Below, in pieces: positions 22,688 through 46,624 of a DNA stretch of 64,000 nt. The translations under genes were made by a program, and so were the position numbers. The notes under the pieces were generated by a model. The model did no database searches. It was not told where the DNA came from and saw only the letters and a list, made by a program, of their open reading frames with translations. Within the stretch, counting starts at the first letter, position 1. Every line of letters starts with the position of its first letter. The stretch spans positions 1,798,001-1,862,000 of the forward strand of contig OX596344.1 of assembly GCA_951394405.1 (NCBI GenBank), written 5' to 3'. Source of the stretch: Coprinellus micaceus. Lineage: Eukaryota > Basidiomycota > Agaricomycetes > Agaricales > Psathyrellaceae.

Positions 22688-25600
22688 TCAGATTATGGCG
22701 GCCGCGCCCCCGTGCTCTCTCTTCAACCCCTCTGCGCCCACATCCCTCAGAACTCCATCTAACCCCGCAACCAACACACCCTCCGCCGTCCCCTCATTCC
22801 ACACATCCCTGGAGCCAATCCTACGCTCAGCCACGCGAGGCACGGCGTACACGCTCTCCTTCATACCCAATCCTACCTCCTCCAACCCGTTCAAGACCCT
22901 GGTGTAGACGCTGTGATCCATGGGCCCAACAACACCCCTGACATGGCTTGCGACCTTACCTTCCGCGACGGCCAACGCGGCGATCGCCACAGGGATACCG
23001 ACGGTCCTAGCCATAGCAGTTCCGCCGAGGTGCTTGGTAGCTTCGGATGGAGACGAGCCGTAAGAAATGAGTGTCGATGTGTGCACGGTTTCGAGAGATG
23101 GGTTGGACGGGTTGCGCGAGACGATCTCGTGTGAGAGGACGACCATATCGCGCTCGCCTTCATTGTACTTGAGCTTAGTTGCGAGGAGATGGGCGAAAAG
23201 GTCGAGCGGCGTATGTGGGTCTGCAGGCAGAGCTGGGGTGTGTGGTCCTGCAGGCCACCTCTGAGCAGTACCCTCGGCAGGAAGGAGGCCAAGCCAAGTG
23301 AGGGCGTCGAGGACTACAGGAAGGTCCTGAGATGGGACAAGGTCGTGTAGAAGGGCAGTGTCCTTGTGCTTAACAAGCATAGCCTGCTGGAGCAGGTCTG
23401 TCCAGCTGCTCAGCGTAACCTTTGCACTCTGCTCGAGAAGCCCAAGGTCCTTGAATGCCTGCATAAGCTGAGCAAACCCAGGGTACCTGAGGGTTCCGCG
23501 AAGGATGGTCCTCATCTTCCCTTCGTCAAGTCCATAGGTATCGCAGTACACCATGCTGTCCCTGTTGGCCAGCCCTTCCAAGTCGAAAGCAGCACCGCTC
23601 ACTGGCACTCTCGGGAAGCTACTCTTAAGGAGGCTCTCCCCAGGAATGACGCGCATTTCCCCGTTGATCTTGAACTGCGCGCTATTGAGGGCTGCGCTGA
23701 GCACGCCGGCGGGACGCCACGAAAATTTGTACTACGGGCATATCGTTAGTCAGTCAACCGTCCTGGAAGGTAAGGAGGAGAGATCGCACCTTCAGAGGCA
23801 CTTCAGCTGCGTCGGGAGCTGGCAGACCACCACAGAAAGAAGTGAACGAGACGACCTCGCTCGAGGGTGAGGCGCGGATCTGAGAAAGCAGCGCAATAGC
23901 GGAGCAGTGGTCGATACCAGGGTCAAGCCCGATCTCGTTCAGTAGCAAAACGTTCGCGGCCTTTGCGCTGTTGGGAGCTCGGGTCAGTCGTCTATGGCAA
24001 GACCAGGCATCGACGAAATCACGTACGCTTCGTCCAACTGCTTCATCTGCGGGGAGATGTAGCTAGCCGTCACAAGGTGCTTGCTGTGCTTGACACAGAG
24101 TTCGCCCACTTTGGGGTGGAAGGCCACGGGGAGCAAACTGGGAATCAGGTCAGTCAGGGAAGTGCCACCACTTTTGAAGAAGATTCGTACCTGATGACGA
24201 CGTCGCTCTCTTCCACCAAATGCACATATGCTTCGGGGTCGCTCACGTCTGCAACCCTATACCGCACGCTGCCCTCCTTCCCTCGAGTGAGGGTCTGGAG
24301 TTCCTCAAGCGAATTGCTCGCAATAACGAGCTCAATACCAGGCGTAGCAGCGATCATATCCACCGCAGGCTTTGCAACCATTCCGCTTCCAAGCATCAAT
24401 ATACGCTTCTTAGGAGGGGTAGCGTCGCCCTTCTTAACCTCTGCCTCCGTCACTTCGCTGGATGCTGCTGGCGTGGATGGCGAGGTTTGGGCTTCGAGCG
24501 TAGACGCCGGGGTTGAAGCCGAGGCAGCAGCAGTCGATGTAGAAGCAGACGGATTCACCAACCCAGCATAAAATCCATCCACACTCTTCTGCAACCACGT
24601 ATGCCTCTCCTTCAACTTCCCTCCACTCGCAATCGTCGCCCCCTCCAACGCCTTCCCGTACCCGTCCTTCTCTGGGTTATACTCCTTCCCCTTGTACGTC
24701 CCGCTGGTCGACGAAATCAACGAATGCAGGTAAGGCATCAACCGGTCGCTAAAGGACTCGCTCGCCTCTAACGGCAGGGAGGTGGGCAAAATGTCGACGG
24801 ACATCATTTGCACAGGGGTGTTGGGCACGGTGTAGAAGGGGTCAGAGAGGGTCGTTGAGTGGGTCAAAAACTCGAGGGCTCCTCCAATGTCGCAGCTCAC
24901 GTCACCAACGTTCCGGCCACGTAGACCCCCAAGGGCGTCAGCCTTGGCTAGGACTACAGGGAGTTGGGCGTTCGTGACAAGGCGAGGGAAACCGGGGGCC
25001 CAGCCGGCGCCATGGAGAAGAAGGGTGAGGTACGGGTATATCTGTGGATGCAGAGTGAGTATTGAGGGTAGCAGAAACGAAAAATATTTGGCGCACCTTA
25101 TCGTGGAAAACGCTCCTGTAGATGTCAGGGTGTTTGTAATAATCTTCTCTGTTGTAAGGTTTCCCGTCTGTGCGCTCAAAGTAGGTGCTTGGGTGAGCAT
25201 GGAGGACATAAACCTGTTCCTTTTGTCAATATGCCGTTCTGCGAAGCACAACTTTCGAGAAACAGGTGATACCTTGCGTCTATCGACATCTGGATTAGAG
25301 ATATCCGTCAGCAAATGGTAGCCCTATACAAGAGTGTGACTTACCAGGATTGTGTACGAGGGCGTCAAGTTCTTCGATTGTGATGTACTGGACCGGAAGA
25401 TGCGCAAGCGTATCCAGCATCCCTTTCGCTACATTCCCCGACCTACGCCAGGATCAGCCAATTCTGTACACAAGCAATACACGCGAACAAACACAACGCA
25501 TACCCTGTAACTCCAATGATTACGGGCCCCAGAGGCTCAGGCGTCCCCCGCTCCTTGATTACCCTCCCAATTTCCTTCAACTGCTCGATGCACTTCTTGA

Positions 25601-27416: not shown

Positions 27417-28526
27417 GTGGAGATCGTCGCTGAGCGCATCCATGAGACGGACGGTGCGAGCCAGGTGTGGCTAGTGCCTTCGTATGCGCACGGGTGGGGC
27501 GGGACACTGGACCGGGTGGACCCCCAGCGCGATAGTGAGGGATACGAACGTTTCTGACCCAAGGCCCGGGGTTGGGACATAACGTAGGGACTCACGGAGA
27601 CAAAGTGAGAGGAACGGGAGAGGCTAAAGAAACTGAAGTCGCCTGCGTTGGGGACAACCTGCCATCCTTCGAACTGATAAAAACATGAATACAAACCCCA
27701 CCTCGGATGTAGGCCCTGCGCCCTGCTCGATAGGTCCCAGGTGATATCTAGGACACGTTAAGTTTCGGAAAGAACGGTAATCTGGTCGGCACTAGCTTGA
27801 ATTGACTTAGGGCCAGACATATTTATCGAATTTGCCCGTTGTGTTGTGATCTAGAGCCCCTCGCCAATTATTTTTGAATAGGTTAACGGGTGCTGCAGTT
27901 CCTAGGCTCCCAAGAGAATGCGATCGTCTCAAAATGCGGCTCAGGTCTAAGGTAGATATCCCGAGTTCTTCGAAGAGTCCATCCAACACGGCGCTGATAG
28001 GCCGTGTGAATGTTCATTCGGCAATACCCGTTGAAGCTTAACCGGAGGTAACCTTTCCTTCCTTCCTCCCGTCTCCCTTGGTAACTTGAATCCATCGTAA
28101 AGGCAAGGCCATCTTGCGTCTTACCCTTCAATTACGCGACTATATCCGTAGTCGATAAAATACTGTGCAGGACGCGTGAAGCACGCTCAGGACATTAACA
28201 CTGGTAAATCAATCCATGTGCAAAGGCGGCCCACTCAAGTCAAAAGACCCTCCGGTGAGCAGCCTTTTCCCATAGAACCTCTAGTGGTGTCGCAAGTGAT
28301 GCTTACTGTTCCCACCTTCAGTAGTTCGTGAGTCCCAAGACACTCTCCGCGGCGCAAGTAGTTGCAAGGGGAATTTCCGCAGCGTTGACTGTGAGTCTGC
28401 GATCGGATCCCCGCAGGCGTCGACAAATCACATTGCAGCGTGCCTTCAAATGAAAGGTACGTAGCTGTGCTAGCCACCGGTAAGTAGTTCTCGATAATCG
28501 ATGGATATTCGAAGAACCTTACAGAC
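27417..28526. repeat. Segmental repeat X, copy 1
   Basis: About 1.1 kb, homologous in direct orientation to 33204-34315. Shared landmarks: GACCCAAGGCCCGGGGTTGG (27556 and 33339), TAATCTGGTCGGCACTAGC (27779 and 33563), and the GGAGGTAACC block. A minus-strand frame with a putative intron (GTAAGCATCACTTGC... at about 28306) is partly conserved, but this copy opens with GTG where copy 2 has ATG. I do not recognise a protein family. Confidence 0.85.
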
Positions 28527-28877: not shown

Positions 28878-31725
28878 ATGGCCGAACCAGAGAACGATGT
28901 TCGTCGGCAAGTTACTGTGAGGAGCCCGAATGCCATACGTGAGCCTTTCCACGACATTCATACTCACCTTAGGGATCTCGGACAAAACTCACCCAAGTCA
29001 CAGATTACCATTACCATGGACCCATAAACCAGATCGGACAAGCGGTCAATGCCAACCTTGGGGTGAACTATGGTGAGTAACAATCAGGACGGTTTCAATC
29101 CATTCACATCCTAATTTCACGGCTAATCCTCGATACGAAGGCTCAATAAATTACGACGCTTATCAGAACTCGCCGCCCGTTTCTCCTACTGGAGAGCACT
29201 CCAGGGGGCACCCATCTCGGTTGATTCTAACGTCCGGTAAGGGCCTTATTCTAATTGACGACCTGGTGCCCCGGTCAGTCCATGCTCATTCCCTGGCTCA
29301 TCCGCGTTGTCAGATATCGCCTCCCTCCTGGACCCCATTCTACACGCCTCCCATACGCGCAACCGCAAGACTTCTCCGCCGAATTCGGATTGCTTCCCAG
29401 GTACGAGGGCGGGTGTCATCCGCGAGATCAAGTCGTGGGCGACAAGCAGCCTCTCTGACGACCCTCGACACATTCTGTGGGTATTTGGGTTCGCGGGGTG
29501 CGGGAAATCCGCCGTAGCGCAGTCACTGGCAGCACAACTGGCGGAAGAAGGTCGGTTGGGTGGTAGTTTCTTCTTCTTCCGCGGGGCGGGGGACAGGAGC
29601 AGGATACTCAGGTTTCCGACAACCATCGCCAGCCAGATCGCGATAGCGGTTCCGGGAGCTGCACAGCACATCGAGAAAGCGCTAAGGAGTCACCCTGGCC
29701 TCCTCGAGCTGACGACATCCCTCACCTTCCAATTCAAGTGCTTGGTGTACGAGCCAATCAGGGTCGCGACCGCGACATCCTACCCCTCATCGTCCTTCGT
29801 CGTTGTCATCGACGGTTTCGACGAATGCGAGGACAAGGAGGAATCATGCGACTTCATCAAGAACCTTATCAGCCTCTTTGAGCGGCACCCTGACATTCCG
29901 CTGCGCGTTCTCATCACCAGCCGCGTAGAAGACCACCTCCACAGGAGACTCCATGACTCCAACCAGGTTCGCTTACTCAATCTAGCCGAACGCACCTCGG
30001 ACGATGACATAGGTGCTGCACTCGACGCCGCAATTGCGGACGCGAAAAGTAGTAGGGTCCTCGCCTGCATCGGTGAATGGCCTTCACCGGGGGAAAGACG
30101 AGCGCTCATCAAGCACATTGGGGGATCGTTCATCTTCATGATGACCATTGTCAGTTTCCTCTTTGACCCACTCAACAACGACGGGCTTACCCCAATTGAA
30201 CGCCTCCCGCTCGCGCTCAACATGAACCCAGGGTTTGACGGCCTATACAAAGCGATTCTCGAGCGCTCACAGCACTTCCCCTACTTCTCCGACATCATCA
30301 GCACCATAGCACTGGCCCGTATCCCACTCTCCATATCTGAAATCGCCGAAGTCCTCGGCATCAAGCCAACGAACGTTGTCAGTGTGCTTGTGAGCCTCCA
30401 CGCCATCTTCCAGGTTCCAGGGGACGACCACAGTCCTGTCACACTCTGGCATACCTCTCTTCGCGACTTTCTCTGCTCTGAGGAACGCTCAGGACCTTTG
30501 TTTGCGTCCCCTTGGCACCACCGGCAGCTCGCATACTGGTACATCAGCTTGTCTGCTTCCTCAGCAGAACCACTTGGACGTCCAGTCCTAGAAGCATGTC
30601 ACCACTGGAGGATGTTCGTCGAACCAATCACAAGTTTTCCAGATTTGCTCAAAAGCCAATCGGTTCGCATCATCGCCCGTCTAGAAGCAGCATTTCCTGC
30701 CGACTTCCGCAACACGGCAGATATCTATTTCCATCCCCACAGCTTCTTGGCCCACCTTGAGGTTGTTGAGCGACAACAAATTACAACTTCTGTCGCTAGC
30801 CCGCCATACCGTCTGATCATGAGGGAGCACCCCTGGTACCTCTTTGAAGACATATTCGAGTGTATTTCTATGGCGCTCGGAGCTGGAGAGCTTATTTCTC
30901 ACTTCACGGAGTCACGCCCACACCTCTTCGACCCACCTGACTATTTGGACATGCTCATACGCGGAATTCAACTTCTCATCCGGAAAAGGCCTGGGGACGG
31001 TGCCCCCATTCTTCGGCTCAACTGCACTGGGCGAGTTGATCGGGGGCGCATAGTCTCCTGTTGGCCCAGTTGTCTCACCTGGGCGTTTAAGGCCAATCCG
31101 CATCACCATCTCTTCGACCCCACCAAGCCATATCCTATTCATATCGCAAATGAATGGGTCGATACAACCCAGGCCTACAACGCTTCCTGGAACCCGGCTG
31201 ATGCCCTAGACGTCGTAATCATGGAGTTTGTGGAACTAATGACAGAGAAAGTTGTAGTCCCATCGGTACAGTTCTATTCAGCATCAAACGGGTGAGGACC
31301 ACGCTGACAAACTTTTTGTTGCCCTCAACAGGGTCTGATCGATGTGAACTCATGGGACTGGACTTCTCGACCGAAACAGTTCCTCCTCAAAAAGGTCTGT
31401 GAATGATTCGCCAGCGCTAGTACCGTCATTATTTACATCCATTTAGCCTCCTCAACTCTCAGGCTCCGTTACAGTGTTCGAGGTACTATCTGTGAGCATC
31501 TCCAGCCCTTATGCACTCACCTTTAGGGCCGTTTACTGAAATATCATACAGGGCATTAAGTCCCTAGCTCTTTGTATGGAGTCCACTTGCAGGCACGCAA
31601 AGGCTCCACCTGATGGGCGTTGCGAGCATCTTCCCCCCAGGTATTCACCCCCGAGTCAAATCTTCTACCCTGGTATTGACCCCCGAGTCAGATCTTCTAC
31701 CCACTTTACTTCAAACTCGTCGTAG
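28878..31725 (+). CDS. NACHT-domain STAND receptor NLR1
   Basis: Exons: 28878-28938, 29004-29072, 29141-29236, 29314-31265, 31332-31394, 31447-31491 and 31552-31725, giving 819 residues in phase. The N-terminus has a Gly/Asn motif at residues 21-44 (HYHYHGPINQIGQAVNANLG), encoded by exon 2. Next comes SLLDPILHASHTRNRK and CFPGTR, the usual lead-in to fungal NACHT domains. Walker A is GFAGCGKSA (134-142), Walker B VVIDGFDECED, then ITSRVEDHL. A winged-helix-like region ends in TLWHTSLRDFL. The last 350 residues contain no WD40, ankyrin or TPR repeats that I can see. Such receptors act as regulated ATPase switches, often in non-self recognition or cell death. The final exon border is less certain; it carries GIKSLALC...STCRH, similar to the ends of NLR2 and NLR3. 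Confidence 0.85.
31641..31703 (+). repeat. 32-bp tandem duplication inside the last NLR1 exon
   Basis: GTATTCACCCCCGAGTCAAA... at 31641 is repeated as GTATTGACCCCCGAGTCAGA... at 31673, two copies. The period is not a multiple of three, so it shifts the frame of the predicted C-terminal tail. Confidence 0.85.
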
Positions 31726-32220
31726 CCAGCTTGAATTCAAGGTTTGGATTGACTGTACATTTAGCCTGTGCTTTTCGCTCGTTTCTTCACAGGCGCCCAC
31801 CCCCTGCTTCGTGTACGGCCTGCAGGGTTGACTCGGATGCTCTAGGAGTCTCCACACCGGGGCCCATATTCAAACGATGACTCACGGGTGTAGACACCCG
31901 GGGCCGGGAGAGACTAAGACGCCCTAGGAGAGTACGAAGGGCAAGGCTTGGTTGGGCTGACGGAAGTACTATCGACCCCCGAAGCTGAAAAAAAAAATGC
32001 CAACGCCAGAACCTGAAGAACCCTCGATCGTCGTCGACCCGGACGACCCCTCTGTTATTCGTCATAAGAAGGTCGGAGTTTGAGACGTATACGAAGACAT
32101 GTCGTGGACTAAGAGGCTGTTCAGAGTCCCTTTCTTGTCGAAAACAGTCGCTCTCAAGGAAGCCTATGACGAACATCCAGTCATCGTACGAATGGTCAAG
32201 GACCTCGCATCGATAGCTGA
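31726..32220. other. Intergenic, no gene recognised
   Basis: Region between NLR1 and the duplicated receptor 5' block. No coherent frame or repeat beyond a short A run. Confidence 0.45.
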
Positions 32221-32802
32221 GCACTGTGGACGAACGGGGCGAGCGGTCTCTCTAGATCGACTCTCTCTCACTTAATGTTGCCTGAAGGGTGTTGGGAAGA
32301 TGAGTGAAGTGCACCGGATTGACCCTGTTAAGTGGTGTGGATGGACGGGGCATGGGCGCCTATTTTTAACACCTGGCTCAGTCGTGGGAAGGTTGCAATG
32401 AAATGCAGTGCTGAGCAGCCAGGCCTACAGCTCTCATAGCGCCGTTTGTCGCTTCCCACCACCTACCAACCTCCTGCCCCCATCCATTTTTCCATCTTCC
32501 GTCGCTCTGTCGACCCTTTACGATCGAGGGCCAAACTGCGCCCAGTATCTTCATGTCAGACGATGGGAAGGCTAGTGAATGGGCCACTAACGACGCAAAC
32601 GTGGTCACTAATATCAGTGTGTGGGCCTCCTCATCTCCGGAGCCCAGCCGCCCTAACCCAGTCGCTTCTGTTGCTCTGTGGTAGATAACTACTATGGCCC
32701 TGTGAATCACGTTGGGCCAGCGTACAACGCGAATTTGGGGATAAACAGCGGTGAGCCCAACACCATCGTGCATCGTTCCCTTCAGCATTGGCCTGATCTC
32801 AA
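32221..32802 (+). repeat. Copy of the NLR3 promoter and first exons
   Basis: Homologous to about 43046-43578: GGTCTCTCTAGATCGACTCT near 32249 and 43070, then the upstream region, exon 1, intron 1 and exon 2. Homology ends at about 32800, exactly where an inverted-repeat element starts. Confidence 0.88.
32553..32750 (+). pseudogene. Truncated NLR with only the first two exons
   Basis: Exon 1 (32553-32616, 64 nt) and exon 2 (32685-32750, 66 nt) match NLR3 exons 1 and 2 in length, phase and sequence (MSDDGKASEWATNDANVVTN..., then NNYYGPVNHVGPAYNANLGI). The NACHT exon that should follow is absent. The motif Gln of GQ is Pro here. If transcribed from its copied promoter it could give only a motif-bearing peptide of under about 70 residues. 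Confidence 0.85.
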
Positions 32803-33151
32803 TCCGGACAAACACGCCGCCGAGGGCGGCGGGACCCAGATTTTAATCCAGACGTTGGGGGTCAAAAGTCGCCAATAGCTGGATTTTTATCCGGACAAAT
32901 GGGCGGTCGAGGAGGGGGTGGAGGCCCCACAGGAGCCATGCCACCTGGGACTTCGACTTATACCTGTCCGGAACTGCGCGCAGTACGCGCCGCGCGCCAG
33001 AAAACGGTGATTTATGCATAAAACGAGGCTCCAGGGGTCGAAATCGAGGCGCCCGAGGCGGGCTAGGGGCTAAAATTCCCAAAAATGGACGCCAAAAGCC
33101 CCGGAAGCTGGATGGACATTCGAGGTGAAAACGGGGCGAAATTTGTCCGGA
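32803..33151. mobile_element. Candidate small inverted-repeat element (MITE-like)
   Basis: Begins TCCGGACAAACACGCC and ends with sequence whose reverse complement is TCCGGACAAATTTCGCC, giving about 10 matching bp plus a CGCC echo. A third TCCGGACAAA copy lies near 32897. It sits exactly at the point where the truncated receptor loses homology to NLR3. No clear target-site duplication was identified, so this is tentative. Confidence 0.45.
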
Positions 33152-33203
33152 CGAGAGGCCCTCCCCAGGATCTAGGTTCTGAAGGCATTATCCGGGGTCC
33201 TGG

Positions 33204-34315
33204 AGACCGTCGCTGAACGCGTCTAGGAGACGGACGGTACGAGCCAGATGTGGCTAGTGCGTTCATGTGCGCACGGGTGGTGCGGGACACTCGACCGGGT
33301 GGACCTCCGACGTGATAGTGAGGGAGACGAACGATTCTGACCCAAGGCCCGGGGTTGGGAGATATCTCTGCCCGAAACTTCAAGTTAACGTGATGTCCTA
33401 GATATCACCTGGGACCTATCGAGCAGGGCGCAGGGCCTCCCACCTCGGAGGTCAGGTTTGTATTCAGGTTTCTACCAGTTCGAAGGGTGGCAGGTTGTCC
33501 CCAACGCGAGCGACTTCAGTTGCTTTAGCCCCTCCCATTCCTCTCACTTTGTCTCCATGTGGTAATCTGGTCGGCACTAGCTTGAATTGACTTAGGGCCA
33601 GACATATTTATCGAATCTGCCCCTTGTGTTGTGATCTAGAGCCCCTCGCCAATTATTTTTGAATAGGTTAATGGGTGATGCAGTTCCTGGGCTCCCAAGA
33701 GAATGTGATCATCTCAAGATGCGGCTCAGGTCTAAGGTAGATATCCCGAATTCTTCGAACACTGTCCATTCAACACGGCGCTGATAGGCCGTGTGAATGT
33801 TCATTCGGCAATACCCGTTGAAGCTTAACCGGAGGTAACCCTTCCTTCCTACCTCCCGTTTCCCTTCGTAACTTGAATCCATCGTAAAGGCAAGGCCATC
33901 TTGCGTCTTGCCCTTCATGTACGCGACTATGCCCGTAGTCGATAAAACTACCGTGCAGGACGCGTGAAGCACGCTCAGGACATGGACAGTGGTAAATCAA
34001 TCCATGTTTAAAGGCGGCCCACTCAAGTCAAGAGACCCTCCGGTGAGCAGCCTTTTCCCATAAAAATCTCGAGTGCTATCGCGAATAATGCTTACCGTTC
34101 CCCATGTCCAGTAGCTCGTAAATCCCTGGACACTCTCCGGCACGCAAGACCGGAGTGCCGACAGTGAGTCCGCGATCGAGCCAAGATCGGGCGCTCGCAG
34201 GTGTCAACAAATCACATTGCAGCTTGCCTTCAAATGAAAGGTACATAGCCATACTAGCCATCGGTCGTTCTCAATAATCGATGGAACACTCGAAGAATCT
34301 TACAAATAGGACTAC
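33204..34315. repeat. Segmental repeat X, copy 2
   Basis: Direct-orientation homologue of 27417-28526. On the minus strand an ATG-initiated frame (34261-34076) and a downstream frame (33972-33709, including YLRLSFNGYCRMNIHTAYQRR) suggest a degenerate gene of unknown family. In this copy X is followed by the GTPase array and not by repeat Y. Confidence 0.85.
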
Positions 34316-34506
34316 ACAAGCGCGAACCCTTCACTGATCACAGCGAGATCACAGTCATATATGTAAGGGGGTTAGATGAGGGCTCTGGTGTTATTTAACA
34401 ACTGTGCAGCGCAGCTGCGTCTCTTCTCCCCTTCTTCCCACCCTTTGCCCTCCCCATTTCCCCCAGCTTCCCGTACTTGCGACTTGATACACCGTCTCGG
34501 CGAGAT

Positions 34507-35472
34507 ATGGCAAGTCAACTTCCAGATACAAAGGATATACCTTTGGCGGACGCTCGAGAGACGGACATCGTCATTCCGTGAATTGCGTGTGCATTGCACC
34601 GTGCCACCCGGACATGGCCCTTACTCTGTTGGCAGCGTCTTGGGGCCAATTAGTTCAGGGAAGAGCTCTGTAAGTTACATGAAGGCAGAGCGCACTGGCG
34701 GATAGACTAACAAACGGAGACAGTTCATCAACAAGTACCTCGAAGCAATTGGAGATCCGAGACGGCTTAAAGTTGAGGGCAATCAGGATCAGCCCTGCAC
34801 CGACCAACTTCAGGCCGTCGTCATCAAAGGTCACGCCAACCTACCTCACCTCTCACCACATTCCAGGATCGTCCTTGTGGATACTCCAGGGTTCAACGAT
34901 ACGATTGCATCGGATTTCAAAATTGTCATGCGTATACGCCGGTGGTTCACAGCCTCGTAAGTGAGATTACAATATTGTCTGGCAGGCGCTCAAAATCCTG
35001 CATGTACACCAGATATCGCAAGGACCTCGCGGTCGGAGGCGTCATCTACATCCACGACATTTCTCAGGATCGATTTATACTCACTGCCAAAAGGAATTTG
35101 GATATGTTCCTACGCTCCGGTACAGACAAGTCGCTGAGCAAGGCCGTCATTGTGACCTCTCAGTGGGGGAGGCCTGCGTTGGATACGGACTTTGGATGCA
35201 GAGAGGAGGGGCTAAAGAAGGGCCGGTGGGTGAAACTACTCGGCCCTCCAAACGGTGGTTCAGGAGCGGTCGTACTTCGACTTGACTTTCCCGATGAGGC
35301 CGAGAGTGCTCGAAGAGCCGTAGACTCTGTACTCAGGAGGCTGGGCAGGGAGGCCGGGACGGCCATTATCACAGAAATGTCGGAGCCCCTTGACGGCCGG
35401 AGGCGTGGGGAGGACTGCGTTTCGGTTGAACGCTTGTCGAATCTCAAACAGGATGTGATGGTCCATGGATGA
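34507..35472 (+). CDS. P-loop GTPase C1, first unit of the tandem array
   Basis: Four exons: 34507-34577, 34636-34669, 34724-34956 and 35013-35472, giving 265 residues. It shares exon layout with the GTPase at 49490: exon 1 ends after DIVI, and a 34-nt microexon carries Walker A (here GPISSGKSS). Exon 3 holds VLVDTPGFNDT (G3). Exon 4 begins SYRKDLAVGGVIYIHDISQD and has TSQWGRP at the G4 position. The stop at 35470-35472 overlaps the ATG of the next unit (35465), and the helical/basic tail of the full-length paralogue is missing. Either two overlapping genes or one multidomain gene split by a frameshift would explain this. Confidence 0.78.
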
Positions 35473-37534
35473 CCAACTGGACGTGGAGAAGAGCGTGGAT
35501 GAAGGAGATGCAGATGTGGTGGAGCGGTCGCCAGCTTCGGACGAGCGCCTATCACCGTCAGATCCCCCCGAGGATCGACCATCCCCGAGTCCGACTGAAG
35601 AATCTCTGGATCACCCGCCAACAGCACAGCCGACCGTACAATTGGACCCACCACTCAAAGCTGACATCGTCATTCTGTGAGGGAATTCATCTTCTGTGCT
35701 TGCACTCAGGCTGAGTACGTCTGCTGACCACAGTGTCATCGGCGCTACGGGCCGGGGAAAGTACCGTGAGTATCCCAAGCCGCACTCTCTTCTCAAGTGA
35801 CTTAAGCACCAACGCAGTTCATAAACAATTATATGAAGGCAGTGGGCCGTCCCGAAACCGTCCCGGTTGGCTATTCTTTATCGCCTTTCACTCACAGCAT
35901 CGAACACGTCATCGTTGAGCACAAGGACGAAACGGGGTCGCAAAATCGGCTCGTTATTGTCGACACTCCAGGTTTCGATAGCACTGACGCCCGGGCGAAC
36001 GACGGTTGCATAATAGACCGGATCAAGGACTGGCTTAAGAAGAGGTGAGTGAATCCAGGATCTCTGTGCTCGAAAAAAGAAGTTCTGATTTCTTGGCCTC
36101 TCTAGCGTCCCCAACATGAACTCACTCGGTGGCGTTATATATCTCTACGACATTTCGAAGACTTCTAGAGCCAGCGACGCCGCTCGCAGGCACCTCCTAC
36201 TGTTCCGAAATGGGCTTGGAGGGGAGAATGTGCCTCTGAGAAAGATCTTCCTTGTGACATCCAAATGGGATTCGCTTTGTCTTCAAAGCAACGAACCGAC
36301 ATATGATAAGGTTATGGAGACCATAAAGCGCGATAATTGGAGGGTGCTGGTTAATCCTAGCATCGGGGCTGGTGCTCGGGTTATGAAATGGGACAAGGAT
36401 GCGCCCAAAGAAAGGGCCGAAAGTGCGAGAAATGTGGTCGAGTCGGTTCTGAGGGGGGTTGCACAGGAACGGATCGATCCTGTCCATTCAGACGTCCAAA
36501 AGGACGACATTGTTATTCTGTGAGTTTGATGAGATATCCCCCATTCGAAGATATCCTGACTTATCCTCAACAGAGTGTTGGGTCAAGCGAAAGCCAAGAG
36601 TTCTGTGAGTCACCTGCATTTGTTACGGGCAGAAACTAACGAGTGTGTCAAGTTCATCGAACAGTATCTCTTGCCGATCGATAAATCTCTGCCAGCCGAA
36701 TCCAATGTATTCCTCTCGGGGTTCAAGGTTGTCACAATCGCAGTTCAAACGAAGGGGAGAGCATATCCTTACCTCCCCTCCAATACCAGAGCTGCCCTCG
36801 TGGATGCCCCTTGTTGTGGCCATGATGGCAAGACTGTATGTGACCATGTCGTCTCGTCGCGCGTGACAGCCTGGCTTGAAGCGTCGTAAGTTGAATTAAA
36901 TTCGGGTAATACTTTAAAGACATCTGACGCTGAAAAAAGGTACGGCAAGAACGTGTCCGTTGGTGGAATCATCTACCTCTACGTTGACAATCCCGTAGAC
37001 AACGACATGGAGATTTTACACAAAAGTCTCGTGCAGCTCAGTCGCTCGTGCCGAGACGCCCTGACCATCATTGCGGAGCTCCACCTGGGAAAGGTTCCTA
37101 CCGTGAACTGGATGAACATCGAGAGTGTCGATGAAGACGGTAAACTGGCTGTGTACTCCCGGAAATGGGCTCAGGTGGGTGTGGGTGTTGAGAAGGTTGT
37201 CAACACACTTCTCAGCCGGGCGAATAAGAAGGCTGGAGAGGACCTCGCAACGGGGATGCTACACATTCAAGAAGAGGTGTCCTCCTTGGCAGACGCCCAA
37301 AACCCTGGGGCTAATCTGATGAACACGCTGAAAAGGATACTACAGGAACAGAAAGATCTGCTCGAGCAGACAAAAAATAACAGAAAGGAGGATGCAGGAG
37401 AGAGACGAGAAAAGGAAATACGGGTGAGGATACGAGCCTTGGAAAAGAGGTTGGAGCGATTGCAGAACCACACCCAAGTGGATCGAATGGTCAAATCGGT
37501 CGGGTCAATCCTCCGAGGTCGCCCCCTCTCCTAG
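35465..37534 (+). CDS. Tandem double G-domain protein C2-C3 with an apparent frameshift
   Basis: Seven exons: 35465-35676, 35734-35765, 35818-36044, 36106-36519, 36574-36604, 36653-36885 and 36940-37534. Two GTPase modules are fused: the last exon of C2 reads straight into QKDDIVIL, the exon-1 ending of every other family member, and splices to C3's P-loop exon. C2: a Ser/Pro/Asp-rich leader of about 65 residues, P-loop exon GATGRGK, then VIVDTPGFDS and TSKWDSL. Its P-loop exon is 32 nt instead of 34, a 2-nt loss that breaks the frame right after the Lys. C3: P-loop degenerated to GQAKAKSS, DTPGF replaced by DAPCC, G4 lost, so it is a pseudo-GTPase. It ends in a long coiled coil and a basic tail (VKSVGSILRGR). 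Apart from the 2-nt gap every junction is in phase. Confidence 0.68.
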
Positions 37535-37535
37535 A

Positions 37536-37680
37536 GTAACTAATTCCCGGAGCGGAACTGCCCCGGGAGTTTCACAACTAGTGTGCATTCTCGAGCACGA
37601 AGTTTATGCAGTACGGTCGAAGTAGAGTAGCTCAGAACGAACGATTTAAGATATGCAAGTGAAGTGGTCTTAGTTTTGGA
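37536..37680. repeat. Segmental repeat Y, copy 2
   Basis: Homologous to 28527-28680, directly downstream of the GTPase array stop. Together with repeat X at 33204 it brackets the array. Confidence 0.85.
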
Positions 37681-39884
37681 TTTCTCACCGGTGAACCAGA
37701 GTCTTGAACTCGATCTAGTCTGCTGATGTGACCTTCAGCGGGGATTATGTTTGGCCCATGGCCATGTGCTGCTTCGGGCCAAAGTGGGACGGCTCCTGGG
37801 CGCAGTATCTCCTCAGAAGCAGGGGTCTGGCGCACGAGAACCTCAGCCCTTCACTTGCTTCGCCTAGTCGAGTAAATGAGGGCAGGGCACTAGAGCTAGC
37901 GTGTTCGAACGTACCTGGTCATTCCCGAGTGCCTTCAGCGGGCAGATCGTGATAACTTTAGTGGTACCCGTTCTTGGGTACCAACTCTCGTTCCCATCAC
38001 CGCCACCATCGAAACTAAGGCTCTTGCCGTAGCCTGTCCTGGCGGTGGGGGTGCTGTCGTACCCTTCGAGAACGCGCATGATGAGCTCCACTCATCAGTC
38101 ATCGGGGAGGTAGCCAAGCTTCGAGCTTAAGTTTCCCTCGAGAGGATTTGGCGAGGATTAAGTGGTATTCCGGGCAGTTGTTCGCCCATTGGGTGTTTAT
38201 GCTTGCAAGGAGAGCTGTGGTGGGTGTTTGAGCCCTGTAGGGCATAGTAAACAAAGGCATTGTGTTCGCCGGACGCGTTATTTGTCTTTGTTATAAGCCA
38301 GGGGCGTCGCCCGTTCTCTGTCTTGGACCAACTTGAATGCCAATGGGCTACGTAAACGTCTACAGCCTATGTCCCCGACCTAGGACTTATGCATTTCCAG
38401 GGTAGGGTGGGTAGAATCCTGATGGATATCATCACCCACCCGATGTGTCGCCGAGACGTTGGACAGGAAGACTCCACGAGACTCAGCTTCCTCTCTCTCC
38501 CTCTCACAATCTCTCCTCCCTCCGCCAACGCCCTTTTGACTTACAGTTGGGGTAGATTGCTTGGCTTGCTGGGTCTAGCTGGTTGTCTCGGTACGCACGG
38601 CCGGCGGGTTCATGCACCGCGACTGCTCCCGGCGACCGTCAGCAGCTTGAATCCGGGGAGTCGCTACCTCCAGCTCGTTTGGATGCTTGCTTCAATCCAG
38701 GAGTCTTCGGTCATGTGGAACTTTGGATCTCTTGGGAGAACCCTCCCCCTTTGATTTTTGGATGGCGACCAATGCCCAACCGCCCAGTGGAGGGCGGGTG
38801 GAGGTTCCACCAAGCTGGTCGAGTGGACTCGGAATGGTGGACTCGTGTGGTGTGCCAGTCGCTTTTCGTTGAATTCTTTGAGTTTGCCTCTGGGACCAGG
38901 TGAAAGTGAGAGGGTCTGGGGATTCACGGGTGGGTGTGCTCAAGGCTCCTGTTGTTGGGAAGATGTTTGAGGCAAGAAAGCTTCGGTAGCATGAGGCTTA
39001 GCTTTGCCGACGCCGCATTCCATGTATGTTTCCCCTACAATTTTGCCCCATTTCACCATCAAGCAACACCATACGTAGCTAATAGCCCCGTTTTTGCGAT
39101 GTGCAAGGTTACGAGCGCTGGGCCCCTGTACAGATGGTGGCTCTAGGAATGCTGATCTTCCTATCTCGTCTACGCCAAGAAAGACGACATCAACAACCCG
39201 ACGTGTTCGGCGGGTTCGACACTTTCACCCCCGCCGATTTGGGTTTCTCTTCACTCCGGGTTCGGGAGCATGGTCATGGGGCTCTCTTCGGTTGCGGGCC
39301 CCGTGAAACGCGATGCCCATACGTCCACTCCCTCTCATTTCTTGGCTGAAAGTTTGTCTGCTCTTGTTGCCAACCCAGGTATATTTTTCATGAAATTGAT
39401 CATCGTCAGAGCCATAATTGATTGCGCCCAGCACTCCACACACAGGCCAATTCAAGGCCCGGAGACTCATCTGTAAGCGCCCGCCGCACTATTGGGCAAG
39501 TAGAAGCATGCGTGGTCGCATGGCGACAAATCACGCAGGGGGAAAGTCGAAGGCGGCAGAAGAAGTTTCCTTTTGAAAGTCGGGCTTGTGACTTGGTAAG
39601 TCCAGTTCCGAGTTTACAAATCAGTTCACATTTTGCTGGGTGACATTTCCGCTGGTTCTGATAGTCTGCACCAAGGTCGGTCTCATCTGAAAACACTCCC
39701 GTCCGTTACGGGCGCCTAAATCAGCGCCGAGCCTATCGGGGGAGTTTTTGCACTTATCGGGAAGTTGGGCTGTGGCTCTGTGTAGCGTCGAGTCGTCGAC
39801 GGGCATCTTTCCTCCCAACCTCCGTCTCAATCCAATCCTCACATCTTCCACCCCCAGATACGACCCGAAATGCAAGGCGAAATC
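37681..39884. other. Mostly gene-free region before NLR2
   Basis: About 2.2 kb. Apart from the helicase fragment at 37915-38091 I see only short unrelated frames. The last 300 bp presumably serve as the NLR2 promoter. Confidence 0.45.
37915..38091 (-). pseudogene. RecQ-like helicase fragment
   Basis: The minus-strand frame reads LELIMRVLEGYDSTPTARTG, then GYGKSLSFDGGGDG, then TTKVITICPLKALGNDQV. This resembles the start of RecQ/DEAD-type helicases: a Q-motif-like lead (LE..I..VLEG.D), motif I (TGYGKS) and motif Ia (PLKAL..DQ). A GTACGT splice donor follows directly at 37914. No further helicase motifs were found on either side, so it is a relic. Confidence 0.65.
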
Positions 39885-42718
39885 ATGGCGTACGACCTCA
39901 ATGCCCGTCAGGAACAAGCTTCCGCGAGCGATTTGGGCTCGATAAGTGAGACCGCCCACTGTAGTGCTGTGATCCCGGTTGACCTGAACTCCTCCCTCGA
40001 CAGGTGGACCCACGGCAGAAGGCGTCTGTTCTCCTTGTGAACACGTTTTTGAGAGTGATGCAAACGGAATACGTGAGTGCGCCCATTATCTGTGCGATCC
40101 CGATTCCATCTGATTCTCTGTACGCACTTGATAGAGAACCGCTATAACCATTATTATGGGCCAGTACACCACATTGGACAAGTGACTAACGCAGCCTTTG
40201 GGCCGAACAACGGTAAATCTTCAGCTGACCGCCCATTTGCCTTGTGCTGAGGTTACCCTTCATAGGAACAATCACCCAAAACTCAAATCAGACCCCCCAA
40301 TCAGGTTCAGCGCTCCTTCTTATCGAACACCCTACATTTGGCTCATCGGGATTCCTAGACCTTGCCACCCTTTTGAACCCACTTCTCGATGCATCACACA
40401 CCCGTAACCGCCGGACCTCACCCCCGAATTCGGACTGCTTCCCCGGGACGAGAGCGAGAGTCATCGAGGACATCTATTCCTGGGCCAAACGTGGCTTTGC
40501 TGATGAGCCCCAGCACATTCTTTGGGTGTTTGGGTATGCAGGATGTGGAAAGTCTGCGATAGCGCAGGCTGTAGCAACCCTCTTAGCGGAGAAGCATCGC
40601 CTCGGAGCTTCCTTCTTCTTCTTTCGCAACGCGGGCGACAGGAGTAAGATTTCAAGATTTGCTCAAACAATTGCTAGTCAGATAGCGGTGGCTATCCCAA
40701 GGACCGCCCCACACATTGAGGCAGCGCTGCAAGCACACCCCGGCATATTAAACCACACAACCTCCCTGACCACCCAGCTCAAGCATCTAGTGTACGATCC
40801 AATCCGAGCCGTCTCCGCAAGGTGGTATCGTCCGATGGGGCTGTGGAGGCCCTTCATCATTGTAGTTGACGGGCTAGACGAATGTGAGGATAAGGAAGGA
40901 GCATCTGCCCTCATCAAGGACCTCGTCAGCTTCTTCGAACGGAAACCCAAGACACCACTGCGGTTCATCATCTCCAGCCGGGTGGAGGACCACCTTCATC
41001 AACGGCTCCACAACTCCACACAGGTATGCTTTCTGGACCTCGTCAGCCTTACTTCGGACCAGGACATCGAGGCTGCGCTTGATGCAGCGATCCAGGACAC
41101 GAGTGGCGGCCGTGTGCTCGATGCTTGCGGCAAAGAATGGCTTAGCCCAGAGGACAAGCGGGAACTCATAACCCATATCGGACGGTCGTTCATCTTCATG
41201 ACCACCATACTCAAGGTTCTGTTTGCTCCGTCTGCAGTTGATGGACTTACGCCAGCCGCGCGCCTTCCTATGGTTTTGAACATGGACCCTGGGCATGGCG
41301 CAGGTGGGCCAAGATTTGATGACCTGTACACATCCATTCTTAACGGCTCTCAATCCCTTCCCCATTTTCACGACGTCATCAGCACCATCGCTCTCTGCCC
41401 AGGCACCCTATCCGTCGCTGAAATTGCGGATCTTCTCGATGTCCAGATAGCCGACGTTGTCGTCGTCCTGGTGAACTTGCATTCAATCATCCAAGTTCCT
41501 GGGGATGACCGCACGCCTGTAACACTGTGGCACACATCTCTCCTCGATTTCCTCACCTCGGAGGCTCGCTCAGGGACTTTTTACGCCTCCCCCAAGCACT
41601 ATCGACGTCTCGCTTACCGATACATCTCCTTATGGACATCATTCCCCCTTGAACCTCCATCCCCTGCCTCCCAGTACGCGTTGTACAAAGCAAAATACTA
41701 CTTAAACCTGTTCCTTCAACCAATCAAGAACGATACCAGCACCCTCCAACACGAAATCGACCAGATAATCGCCCATCTTGAAGTGACATTCCCCGCCACC
41801 TTTCACGATGTAGCGGCCACCTATTTCCACCTGGATCGGTTCTATATGAACTATGACAATGTGTCACTCGTTGCTTACCTATCTCCCCAATGGGAGCAAG
41901 CTACGATGATCACGCAAATCCTGGATGTGATCATGGTAAAGCCAAGAGAGTGCGCTTTCCAGGAAGAATTGCTCACACATATGCGACAGTCTCGTCCCCG
42001 GTTTTTCGACGGCAGGCATCACCTGGAAATAGTGATGCGTGCAATTCCTCTGCTTGTTCGCATAAATCCCCGCACTGGTGTCCTTGACTTGGACATCGAA
42101 AATCGGTACCTCTTTGTCCACTGGCCAGGCCACCTGGCCTCTGCGATCCGGGCTTATCCCCAGCACCCCGCTTTCGACGCAGTCACACCAACCCGTGTTC
42201 AAATTTCCCAGTATGGCTCGGGGCTCTCTTGGAATGCTTATACCATATCGGAAGTTACGACTGAACAAGCGGCATCAAACGTGAGGCTTGCAGAGCGGGC
42301 AATGAGGACAGCCAATCTGTCAGAGGTACGAGAATTTAAATTCTGTTGCAGCGAATCGTTCTTCGAGCTCACCGATCACTTTCGTACAGGCTTTACGTGG
42401 CGGCGGAGAATGGAACTGGCAGAGAAAGGTGTATTACGACTTACCTGTCTTTGGACTTGACCAGGTCAGTGGCCTGTTTACACTACGGCCTCGCATAGCT
42501 CATCATTCATGTAGTCCGATGCGGAGCGTCTCATCTCTGTCTATGACGTCTTCAACGTGAGTCCATTGTCCTCTGCAATGCGTAGGGGAGTCTCAACCCA
42601 AGAGCAGGGAATTCAATCCTTCCTCATGTGTTTACAATCCACTTGCGCTCATGGAAGAACACGTAAGGGGGAATGCGTAGAATGGTCCCTGACCCAAGGC
42701 CACGCAACTTACACATAA
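39885..42718 (+). CDS. NACHT-domain STAND receptor NLR2
   Basis: Exons: 39885-39945, 40004-40072, 40135-40212, 40266-42325, 42390-42464, 42515-42556 and 42608-42718, giving 831 residues in phase. Exon 1 has the same 61-nt length as in NLR1. An extra 69-nt exon (SGPTAEGVCSPCEH...) precedes the Gly/Asn motif exon (NHYYGPVHHIGQVTNAAFG). NACHT: LLNPLLDASHTRNRR, CFPGTR, Walker A GYAGCGKSA (159-167), Walker B IIVVDGLDECED, IISSRVEDHL. Winged-helix region ends TLWHTSLLDFL. The C-terminal half has no visible repeat ligand-binding domain. The short 3' exons (GGGEWNWQRKVYYDLPVFG; SDAERLISVYDVFN; GIQSFLMCLQSTCAH) parallel those of NLR1 and NLR3, which supports them. Confidence 0.87.
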
Positions 42719-43045
42719 ACGAGTTCAGAGTCCAGCAGCAGCTGGCCCCCTGGCCTCAGGCCTCAACTTGTCACTGAGCAGGGAACCGTTTCATCCGTAA
42801 CTTCCGGCTCTTTTGTACTCGCAGCCAGCAGCTAGTATGATTATCGATCACTGCCCGACTTCCAGACCGCATTTAACCATAGTTCGTATTGCTCGTACTT
42901 ATAGTCCTCCTACTTAGAGTATGGGCCCCATGGTTTATGTCGTTGTTTGCCTCACGCTGTGTTACTGGGGACGCATACCAAAGTACTAGGCGTACACGGG
43001 TCGACTTAGCCTCTTTCTTAAATATTTCTATCAATAGTATAGCTG
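42719..43045. other. Spacer between NLR2 and NLR3
   Basis: Short region with nothing recognisable; the NLR3 upstream duplicated block begins at about 43046. Confidence 0.45.
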
Positions 43046-43578
43046 AGCCACTGTGGATGAACGGGGCGCGGTCTCTCTAGATCGACTCTCACTCACTTAA
43101 GGCTGTCCTTAAAAGTTTTTGGGAGGATGAGTGACGTGCACAGGATTGACCCTGCTAAGTGGTGTGGATGGGCGCCTATTTTTAACACCCGGCCCAATCG
43201 CGGGAAGCTTACAACGAAATGCAGTGCTCAACAGCCTCGTGGCGCCGTTTATCGTTTCCCACCTACTACCAACCTCCTACCCCCGTCCATTTCTCCATCT
43301 TCTGTCGCTCTTCAGTATCTTCCGAGTCATGTCAGACGATGGGAAGGATAGTGAACGGGCCACTAACGACACAAACGTGGTGACCAATATCAGTGTGTGG
43401 ACCACCTCATTTCTAGAGCCCAGCCGCCCTGACCTAGTCGCGTCTGTTGCTCTGTGGTAGATAACTACTATGGCCCTGTGAATCACGTTGGGCAAGCGTA
43501 CAACGCGAATTTGGGGATAAACAGCGGTGAGCCCGGCACCATCGTGCATCGTTCCCTTCAGCATTAGCCTAATCTAGG
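43046..43578 (+). repeat. NLR3 upstream block and 5' exons, duplicated at 32221
   Basis: Contains the NLR3 promoter, exon 1 and exon 2. Its other copy at 32221-32802 lacks everything downstream. Confidence 0.88.
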
Positions 43579-46500
43579 CTCCGTAGGCTTGATAACCCAG
43601 AACGCGCACCAGGACCTGAATGCCTCGCCTCTGCAACCCCCTGCGCCAGGGAGTAGTATCCCTTCTCCTGGGATAATCCATGTATCTGGTGCGGATCTCC
43701 TTACATTAGGCAAGACGGGCCGGTTCTCATTTCGATACTCAGGCCTTCAAGCTCTGTTGAACCCCATTCTCGATGCTTCCCATACCCGCAACCGCAAGGT
43801 CTCACCGCCCAATTCCGATTGTTTCCCTGGAACTAGGACAGAAGTCATACAAAACATCAACTCCTGGGTACGAGGTAGCCTCTCCGCCGAGCCACAACAT
43901 ATCCTGTGGGTGTTTGGGTATGCGGGGTGTGGAAAGTCCGCAATCGCACAGGCTGTGGCAGTCCTATTGGCCAACAGCCGTCGGCTCGGTGCGAGCTTCT
44001 TCTTCTTCCGTGGGTCCGGAGACAGGGGCAGGATGTCGAGCTTTGCGGCCACCCTCGCGAGCCAGATAGCGACAGCGATTCCCGGAACCGCTCAGCACAT
44101 CGAGGCTGCGCTCAAGTCCCACCCTGGTTTACTACATTCCACGACATCCCTCGTCGTTCAGCTCAAGCATCTGTTGTACTACCCGATCCGAGCCGTGACC
44201 GCAAAGTGGTATCGCCCGGCCGGGGTGTGGAGACCCTTCGTCATCGTCATCGACGGCTTAGATGAGTGCCAGGACAAGGACGGCGTTTCCGAATTTATCA
44301 AAGACTTGATCGACTTTTTTGAACGAAAGCCAGACACTCCGTTGCGCTTCCTCATCACAAGCCGGGTGGAGGATCATCTTCACCAGAGACTCCACAATTG
44401 TGGCCAAGTCCGCCTACTGAACCTCGTCGATCACACCTCGGACAAGGACATCGCTGCCGCACTCGAAGCCGCCATCGAGGACGCGAAGGGTAGTAGGGTG
44501 CTCACCTGCGAAGGGGCATGGTTAACCCTGGAGGATAAGGAGAAGCTTATCGAGCACATCGGAGGGTCGTTTATTTTCATGACGACGATCGCCAAGTTCC
44601 TCTTCGCTCCATACAACACGGATAAGCGTACCCCTTCCGCCCGCCTTCCACTCGCCCTCAACATGAACCCTGGGTTCGACGGCCTATACATGGCGATATT
44701 GGAGGGTTCCCAGGACTTTCCTCACTTTTTCGACATCCTCAGTACCATTGCCTTGGCACAGGAGTCCCTCTCTATCGCTCAAATTACGGACCTCTTGGCT
44801 ATCGACACTATCGATGTCGTGAGCGTCCTTGTAAACCTGCACGCAATCATTCAGGTTCCAGGAGACGACCACACCCCTGTTACCCTATGGCATACTTCCC
44901 TGCGAGACTTTCTGACCTCGGAGAGTCGTGCAGGAGCCTTCTTTGCCAATCCAGGTCACCATGAGCGCCTTGCTTTGAGATGCCTTGACCTCGCAATTCG
45001 CCCCTCTAAACTGCGACGTAGAGGCCCAGCCTTTCTGTACGCCAACGAATATGTCTGGGACCACTACCGGGCGCTCACCCATGCGATGGGTGGAAAGAGG
45101 GACTTTCACAGCAGGACCTTTACCCTTGTGCAAACCTTCAAGGATCCATTTCTGACCGCGATCCCTGAAGATGTCCTGGATGGGCTTTACAGGTCTATCC
45201 TTGCTTCCTCCAAACACTTCCCTTTCTTCCACGACATCATCAAGACCATCGCCTTGATGCAGATCCCACTGACTCTCCCTCAAGTTGCGGATCTCCTAAC
45301 CATCATGACTATCGGTGTAAGGAAGGCACTGGTGGAGCTACACCCCGTTGTGCATTTACCGGCGGACCATCATACACCCATCACTTTCTGGCACCAGTCT
45401 TTCCTTGACTTCCTCCATTCCGAACCTCGTTCAGGAGAATTCTTTGCAGGCCCCGAACACCATCGACACCTCGCCTATCGATCCATATCCATTATCGACC
45501 CACTGGCCTCTCGCATAGACTCCCCAGGATCGGAGTACTCTCGGGACTTTGCAATCGTTCATTGGAAGCAGTCGTTGGAACCAATGACGGGAGATAGCAA
45601 CGTGTTGGGCAGCGAAGTGGAAAAATTCATTCGCCACTTACGGGCGGTTTTTTCGACCGATTTCCATGCCATGGCGCCCGCGTACTTCCACGTCGACCAC
45701 CGCTTTGTCGATAATCTTCTCCAGGTTCATCAACCCCACACCATCACTTCATTTCTCCGCGACAAGTGCCCCCAGGCTGTGCTAAACGACGAGCAACCCT
45801 GGACTTTGATCAAAAGTGCGTTTCGAACAATCGAAGCGACTCTGGGGGAGGAAGCGCTGGTCGACCATCTGCGGCCCCTTGGCCTGCGCCTGCTTGACAC
45901 ACATCACCATTTGGACATGGTCATGCGCGGCACTCAACTCCTTGTAAAACTGCGAGTCTCCGACAACGCCCTTGTCCTGCAGTCCGGATGTGCCCAGAGG
46001 GGCTACCTTACCGACTATTTCGCTGACTACATGTTCACTTCCTGGACAAAGCACCTCGCTTTGGCCCTGAGTGGCGACCCAAGACACCCTGCCTTCGACA
46101 TTGCCGACCCAAGTCACATTGAAATTCAAAACCGGGAGACAGGTTGGCCCTGGTACTCTGCGCGGCGAGATTGGGTTAATTTGGCTGGGTTGAACCTCGA
46201 AAGCGCAGAAAGGGTGGTTGAAAGGACCACGGGGACAAAGGTGACGTAACATTAAGTTCTCATAACGAAGGGAAAGCTAATAGACAGCTTGGCGTTATCC
46301 AGAAGGCACCGGAAACTACAAGTAAGTGGGACTGGGACACCAGAGGGCATTTCATCTTGAAAAAGGTCAGCCAACTGCGATCCCGTCCATCTCATACTCA
46401 TTATCGTGTTCCCTCCAGGCCTCGGCAAACCCATACGTCACTGTGTACGAGCTATTAGGTGTAAGCCTTTCCCTTTACTCCTTGAACACCCCAGGACGTA

Positions 46501-46624
46501 CTTAGCACACACTCAGGGGATTCGGTTGCTGCTGTCATGCTATCGATCGACCTGCAGTCACCGTGACCCATCTTCGCCTGGCAGCCACTGCAGCCACAAG
46601 GACCGGCACTGGGAGCAGGTGTAG
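43329..46624 (+). CDS. NACHT-domain STAND receptor NLR3 with a duplicated winged-helix unit
   Basis: Exons: 43329-43392, 43461-43526, 43578-46240, 46303-46365, 46419-46460 and 46517-46624, giving 1001 residues. Exon 2 (66 nt) encodes the Gly/Asn motif NNYYGPVNHVGQAYNANLGI. NACHT: LLNPILDASHTRNRK, CFPGTR, Walker A GYAGCGKSA (157-165), VIVIDGLDECQD, LITSRVEDHL. The winged-helix block GLYMAILEGSQDFPHFFDIL...TLWHTSLRDFLTSE is followed about 80 residues later by a second, diverged copy GLYRSILASSKHFPFFHDII...TFWHQSFLDFLHSE. That explains the extra 170 residues relative to NLR1 and NLR2. The C-terminal exons match the family (KWDWDTRGHFILKK; YVTVYELLG; GIRLLLSCYRSTCSH). Confidence 0.88.

Follow-up and report, generated by a model that had tools for sequence, protein, structure and literature searches.

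Why should every receptor in a cluster of NOD-like receptor (NLR) genes begin with the same short, separately encoded peptide? The question is raised by a stretch of 64,000 nucleotides (nt) from Coprinellus micaceus (G000:C11:1798001-1862000, in a genome of 50.3 Mb and 17 contigs), referred to here as the window, in which three receptors (NLR1, NLR2 and NLR3) and one truncated copy carry a small exon for a Gly/Asn-rich motif. The exon is real, widespread and conserved. We lean slightly towards the view that it encodes a portable motif for homotypic assembly, probably of the amyloid signalling kind, coupling many receptors to a few unlinked executors; the amyloid state and the link between receptor and executor are what we infer from the sequences. 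The motif heads predicted NLRs of two nucleoside triphosphatase (NTPase) lineages, it is conserved and its flanks are not, and on closely related NACHT domains its place can be taken by another N-terminal motif. A predicted protein of 382 residues, with a weak MLKL_N match in its N-terminal part, has the motif at its end, and a paralogue of this protein appears to end in a decayed version. A peptide common to receptor N-termini and to the C-terminus of a putative partner suggests a shared handle.

A preliminary description of this DNA had placed four such exons, of 66-78 nt and between phase-1 introns, at the head of every receptor of the cluster. All four are present where it put them, with lengths of 69, 66, 78 and 66 nt, and each combines an AG acceptor leaving two bases with a G|GT donor (phase 1/1). 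The gene parts, by window position, are the following.

28878..28938, + strand: NLR1 exon 1 (MAEPENDVRRQVTVRSPNAI), with a phase-1 donor
29004..29072, + strand: NLR1 motif exon, (H)YHYHGPINQIGQAVNANLGVNYG, 69 nt, phase 1/1
29141..29236, + strand: NLR1 exon 3, the motif end (split Gly, then SINY) and linker
29314..31295, + strand: NLR1 NACHT exon (NPHP3_N 2.3e-23 and NACHT 2.2e-9 in the open reading frame (ORF) 29307-31295)
32213..32799, + strand: 5' duplicate of NLR3, 81% to 43039-43575, ending before exon 3
32553..32616, + strand: exon 1 of the truncated copy (MSDDGKASEWATNDANVVTNI)
32685..32750, + strand: motif exon of the truncated copy, NYYGPVNHVGPAYNANLGINSG, 66 nt, phase 1/1
40135..40212, + strand: NLR2 motif exon, NRYNHYYGPVHHIGQVTNAAFGPNNG, 78 nt, phase 1/1
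40266..42460, + strand: NLR2 exon 3, the motif tail GTITQ and NACHT (NPHP3_N 1.9e-23 in the ORF 40244-42460), open to 42460
43329..43392, + strand: NLR3 exon 1 (MSDDGKDSERATNDTNVVTNI), with a phase-1 donor
43461..43526, + strand: NLR3 motif exon, NYYGPVNHVGQAYNANLGINSG, 66 nt, phase 1/1
43578..46249, + strand: NLR3 exon 3, linker and NACHT (NPHP3_N 7.2e-24 in the ORF 43589-46249)

The four-exon model of NLR1 gives a protein of 735 residues. Among the matches listed, the window has three NACHT stretches, which are those of NLR1, NLR2 and NLR3. In the truncated copy the 5' part of NLR3 is repeated (81% over 590 bp), and no NACHT match was found in the 1.5 kb downstream of its motif exon. A six-frame scan of the window with a profile hidden Markov model (HMM) of the motif, whose training set contains three of the four matches, gave exactly four matches (36.6-44.3 bits) and no fifth copy. 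The runner-up scored 3.5 bits, and the best of 10 shuffled windows, used as a control, 12.6 bits.

The conserved stretch covers about 28 residues, and the exon encodes about 22 of these, its last Gly codon being split by the intron. The usual tail in the next exon is [ST]-[IV]-x-Q: in 17 public instances the split position is G in 16, followed by S/T in 11 and I/V/F/M/L in 16, with Q two positions on in 13. The exon therefore holds most, not all, of the motif. Within the window the exact tail is found only in NLR2 (G-T-I-T-Q). The initial idea of a single motif of about 20 residues on its own exon thus stands for most of the residues and has to be extended into the next exon. The pattern first written for it fits all four window exons but is too narrow, recovering 5 of 32 listed genomic copies (window receptors included) and 4 of 20 public ones; the core as found here is P-[VI]-N-x-[IV]-G ... 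N-A-N-[FL]-G-x-N-x-G. In 37 aligned 23-mers the most constant positions are N15 (35/37), G19 (35/37) and G23 (34/37). Charged residues make up 4.3% and N, G, Q, Y and H together 56%, a low-charge, N/G/Y/H-rich make-up that supports the amyloid-like look noticed at the outset.

Mean pairwise identity among 16 public proteins is 20% upstream of the motif and 54% within it; for the linker it is 24% and for the NACHT domain 51%. As motif hits served to choose these proteins, the 54% is somewhat high. Over 26 genomic copies the ratio of nonsynonymous to synonymous differences per site (pN/pS) is about 0.41, with pS near saturation. An AlphaFold2 model of one public relative, P0011 (32 sequences), which is silent on amyloid, gives residues 1-81 a predicted local distance difference test score (pLDDT) below 50. 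The motif (residues 31-53) lies in blocks with means of 30-36, and the NTPase is confidently modelled (blocks from residue 111 to 240 at 79-96). The motif thus lies in a low-pLDDT segment outside the NTPase, and not in the middle of a folded domain, the position that the preliminary description had named as speaking against its reading. As far as this one relative is representative, the NLR N-terminus is unfolded and the motif in it short and weakly charged. Basic KRAR...KR stretches resembling a nuclear localization signal were seen ahead of the motif in the upstream frame of L011 and in the public proteins P0017 and P0022.

How far does the motif extend beyond the window? At least 42 copies were found in the genome from six seeds (19, then 2, 10, 2, 7 and 2 new; weakest E 0.197), and a reversed-peptide control gave no match in the genome. 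Classes were assigned by inspecting the translations around all 42 places. Class I includes 26 NLR3-type places, with an NLR3-like NACHT downstream in 24; the others are the truncated copy of the window and L026, where the match ends short of the NACHT. Class II includes six places before a divergent NTPase (L068, L070, L071, L077, L079 and L081), with NPHP3_N and TPR matches in both proteins scanned against Pfam. Five of these NTPases (without L081) form one clade at 100%, separate from class I. There are thus 32 NLR-type loci with the motif, and an NTPase was seen in 30. Since divergent NTPases, HMG-box-like proteins and other non-NLR genes are among its carriers, the motif is not confined to the paralogue group in which it was noticed.

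In an automatic scan, 27 of 31 copies showed a phase 1/1 exon (two-base acceptor and G|GT donor at the motif end), three of them (L015, L017 and L025) with a weak-looking donor, GTCAGC. L026 has no acceptor and L061 no donor at the motif end. L049 was set aside because its frame is open upstream despite an AG in place. The sites of L052, the C13 gene described below, lie beyond the range of the scan, and its full gene model gives phase 1/1.

The public set consists of 121 proteins, namely the best 120 of 187 relatives of NLR3, of which the named ones are from Coprinellus, Ephemerocybe and Candolleomyces, and P0121. These three genera belong to the Psathyrellaceae. The motif occurs within the first 180 residues of 20 of the 121 (E < 0.2; 17 below 1e-5; the next at 0.28). 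In many of the remaining proteins this position is occupied by another N-terminal motif. When 145 NACHT domains (45 with the present motif, 51 with the other and 49 unlabelled and uncounted) are placed on a tree, the label changes at least 13 times, eight of these being forced by well supported branches, against a mean of 32 for shuffled labels; this was a quick tree, on which long branches are flagged, and the number of changes could be too high if public gene models lack some small exons. A looser labelling gave 14 changes. The sisters P0005 and P0021 carry different labels. The motif has the marks of the shuffleable unit first proposed: it is portable, outside the folded domain, beyond one paralogue group and in related species. 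One NLR of Candolleomyces eurysporus (P0100) has both types of N-terminal motif in tandem.

If the motif serves for signalling, a partner with the same motif would be expected in the genome, as the preliminary description had predicted. A candidate is found on contig C13 (C13:791489-792947). Its gene model, predicted from sequence alone, has six exons, five GT-AG introns (56, 56, 57, 63 and 78 nt) and 382 residues. The motif occupies residues 358-382, that is, the last 25, with the stop directly after, and is encoded by a phase 1/1 exon. An HMM made from 24 NLR-side copies only scores 26.3 bits at this C-terminus; elsewhere it scores 41.5 and 33.6 bits in two P/Q-rich proteins, 26.2 in L069b, 19.8 in L075 and 19.7 in L073. 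When the whole protein was compared with Pfam at E up to 10, MLKL_N was the sole family matched (E 0.0061, 16.5 bits), and it was the best match of the trimmed domain (E 0.0014, 18.6 bits). This we read as likeness to MLKL_N, not membership. A profile of the protein and its two paralogues, compared with the PDB, gave five MLKL sequences among 19 weak matches (E 0.5-0.6); a single-sequence PDB search with the C13 protein gave no MLKL. Thus a protein of this genome that can be called effector-like, on sub-threshold matches, ends in the motif.

Both paralogues are likewise on C13, at 754 and 743 kb. The one at 754 kb has the C-terminus FAQNASFGTSYG|TIDKAS, with its last intron at the same position as in the candidate partner; the one at 743 kb looks broken and no motif was seen in it. 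There may thus be one clear and one doubtful executor for the 32 NLR-type loci. An assignment of C13:792817 as another P/Q-rich protein was rejected on account of its upstream exons.

The motif is also found in proteins of quite different kinds. Class III includes six places at C6:106-140 kb, where the motif belongs to small proteins that contain a segment resembling an HMG box. Two of the five scanned match Pfam HMG_box (PF00505) with 19.2 bits (E 0.0017) and 14.9 bits, not reaching the cut-off of 25.4, and the other three have no match to it. A profile of the family finds the LEF-1 box with 3.1e-4. Here, too, we would speak of likeness to the HMG box and not of membership. A fold search with P0121, based on a poor model, had no HMG box among the best 50 matches listed (best E 1.1). 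L069, L072, L073, L074 and L078 (G000:C6:106-140 kb) look like a local HMG-box-like family headed by the motif, and L074 and L078 have a decayed look.

Class IV includes four non-NLR genes (C1:1339661, C2:5082439, C8:868792 and C13:792817), three of which are P/Q-rich by eye; C13:792817 is the place in the gene of the candidate partner. In L065 (C1:1339661) and L066 (C2:5082439) the general F-x-x-A-x-x-F N-terminal motif comes first and the present motif follows. The F-x-x-A-x-x-F-type motif scores 36.3 and 42.1 bits in these two P/Q-rich proteins, values biased upward because both sequences are in the training set of that HMM. The two proteins are possible bridges between the two motif families. 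Homology of the present motif to the F-x-x-A-x-x-F-x-I motif is not supported (hhalign probability 10.9%), and it is a guess that the latter is NLR05/22 of PMC9815663.

Is this a new kind of system? Here and below, published work is referred to as far as the accessible sections of each paper describe it. Short NLR N-termini yielded 16 motifs in PMC9815663 (Wojciechowski et al. 2022), of which seven come from Agaricomycete groups and have no neighbouring effector. In two species one motif is common to two MLKL-like C-termini and to many non-neighbouring NLR N-termini. Basidiomycota NLR/effector pairs are likewise not neighbours there, and the published BaMLKL set includes sequences below Pfam thresholds. 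The NLR05/08/22/29/44 meta-family and NLR20, with BaMLKL, have the same layout as the present system, with short amyloid-like N-terminal motifs and dozens of NLRs per genome. NLR20 (21 residues, 37 sequences, Agaricales) could be the present motif, and three motif fragments looked for in the text of that paper, the text only, are not there. The motif and its candidate partner repeat this layout and are a new instance rather than a new kind of system; the symmetric exon and the HMG-box-like and P/Q-rich motif proteins are features here that those sections do not report.

Other known systems are more distant. PP, RHIM and BASS3 resemble the present motif in their Gly/Asn/Gln-rich look and (for PP and BASS3) their position at the NLR N-terminus, but not in their core. 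PUASM (NLR32) has a similar length (about 22 residues) and the same distribution between NLR N-terminus and effector C-terminus, but the published case concerns Pezizomycotina and PNP_UDP effectors. Zebrafish NLR-B30.2 genes (PMC4852459) also have short N-terminal peptides shuffled between NLR groups; unlike here, no effector-side copy is reported in what is accessible of that study. No other description of such a motif in mushrooms was found in the open-access literature, preprints and most subscription journals excepted.

A number of results weigh against an amyloid signalling motif with an MLKL-like executor. The core of RHIM and PP (G-[IV]-Q-[IV]-G or NxGxQxGxN) and the PUASM pattern (FxGxGxQxxGxGxF), as given in PMC7885112 and PMC9815663, occur in none of 52 instances. 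The MLKL_N scores of the C13 protein lie below the 27-bit cut-off of that family (PF22215), and nine unrelated PDB sequences rank above the MLKL ones. The paralogue at 754 kb has no MLKL_N match, and its motif is weak (11.9 bits, and 7.5, below inclusion, with the NLR-only HMM). About 254 kb separate the candidate partner from the nearest motif-bearing NLR found on C13 (537936), so that the two are not adjacent. In most non-NLR copies the motif is N-terminal or internal. HeLo has no match in the genome; nor has the Goodbye model, but this had no match in any control either. Finally, a public search with the motif region alone gave nothing, and no candidate with three shared words.

With the cores absent in all 52 instances, kinship to RHIM, PP and PUASM was rejected, the first two having been suggested earlier. 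Kinship to a Pfam family is not borne out either: no Pfam model, those of HET-s/HRAM, sigma and RHIM included, matches the N-terminus in any of eight proteins at E up to 10, although for motifs this short profile HMMs have little power (PMC12261475). No PDB relative of the motif was found.

What else might such a peptide do? It could be a short linear docking motif, binding a common adaptor or scaffold, or its own copies in a small defined complex, without any cross-beta polymer. Its occurrence at the N-terminus, at the C-terminus or in the interior of proteins that are unlike one another, the missing core signatures of known cross-beta motifs and the lack of a Pfam or PDB relative would all suit this explanation. 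We consider it rather unlikely, though worth serious attention, as the Gly/Asn-rich and almost uncharged make-up and the arrangement at NLR N-terminus and effector C-terminus are those of amyloid signalling motifs (PMC7889193, PMC9815663).

The exon might also be a relic that plays no part in signalling itself: an ancestral 5' leader exon that was duplicated together with the NLRs and that other genes acquired by recombination. A symmetric phase 1/1 exon, as in the 27 of 31 scanned copies, is easily shuffled, and the truncated copy of the window lacks a receptor, though its upstream sequence, exon 1 and the motif exon are there. A motif as conserved as the NACHT domain between flanks that are not (the motif figure being biased upward), the pN/pS of about 0.41 over 26 copies (pS being near saturation) and the placing of the motif at the C-terminus of the C13 protein make this improbable. 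Still less probable, to the point that we would be surprised by it, is an intramolecular element folding back on the NACHT or linker and keeping the receptor inactive. The motif does lie not far before the NTPase (53 residues from the SPP box in P0011 and 74 in NLR3), but it also occurs in proteins in which no NTPase is seen, and another motif takes its place on closely related NACHT domains.

Under the assembly reading that we prefer, ligand binding would cause the NACHT domains to oligomerise, gathering many N-terminal motifs. These would form a seed templating the C-terminal motif of the MLKL-like protein, which would in turn oligomerise, act on membranes as for HET-S or MLKL, and kill or wall off the cell. 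One or two executors could serve many receptors, so that the genes would not have to be neighbours. Such an assembly may have additional clients or modulators in the HMG-box-like and P/Q-rich proteins that carry the motif.

In the window itself no adjacent partner was found: ten ORFs compared with Pfam have metabolic, ribosome-biogenesis or kinase matches, two weak matches or none, and the motif HMM gives no further copy. Saccharopine dehydrogenase matches adjoin the NLR cluster (22688-25314, minus strand) and represent ordinary metabolism. A repeat at 33201-33600, about 400 bp past the break of the truncated copy, is 88-100% alike to pieces of 27418-27815, one of them inverted.

Amyloid signalling by NLRs is known from experiments in ascomycetes and bacteria; for mushrooms we found one in-silico survey and no experiment in the literature covered. 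The locus makes the question testable: the motif can be named, its peptides are defined, and it forms the last 25 residues of a candidate executor. A further question on which the locus bears, put in PMC7889193, is whether signalling amyloids occur in NLR-independent proteins and pathways. A bolder view, which we offer tentatively and hold to be doubtful, is that this motif family would be a hub of mushroom immunity, in which no fewer than 32 NLR-type loci, with NTPases of two kinds, would reach several unlike clients through one self-assembling motif: an MLKL-like executioner that bears it C-terminally, HMG-box-like and perhaps nuclear proteins, and P/Q-rich proteins possibly bridging two pathways.

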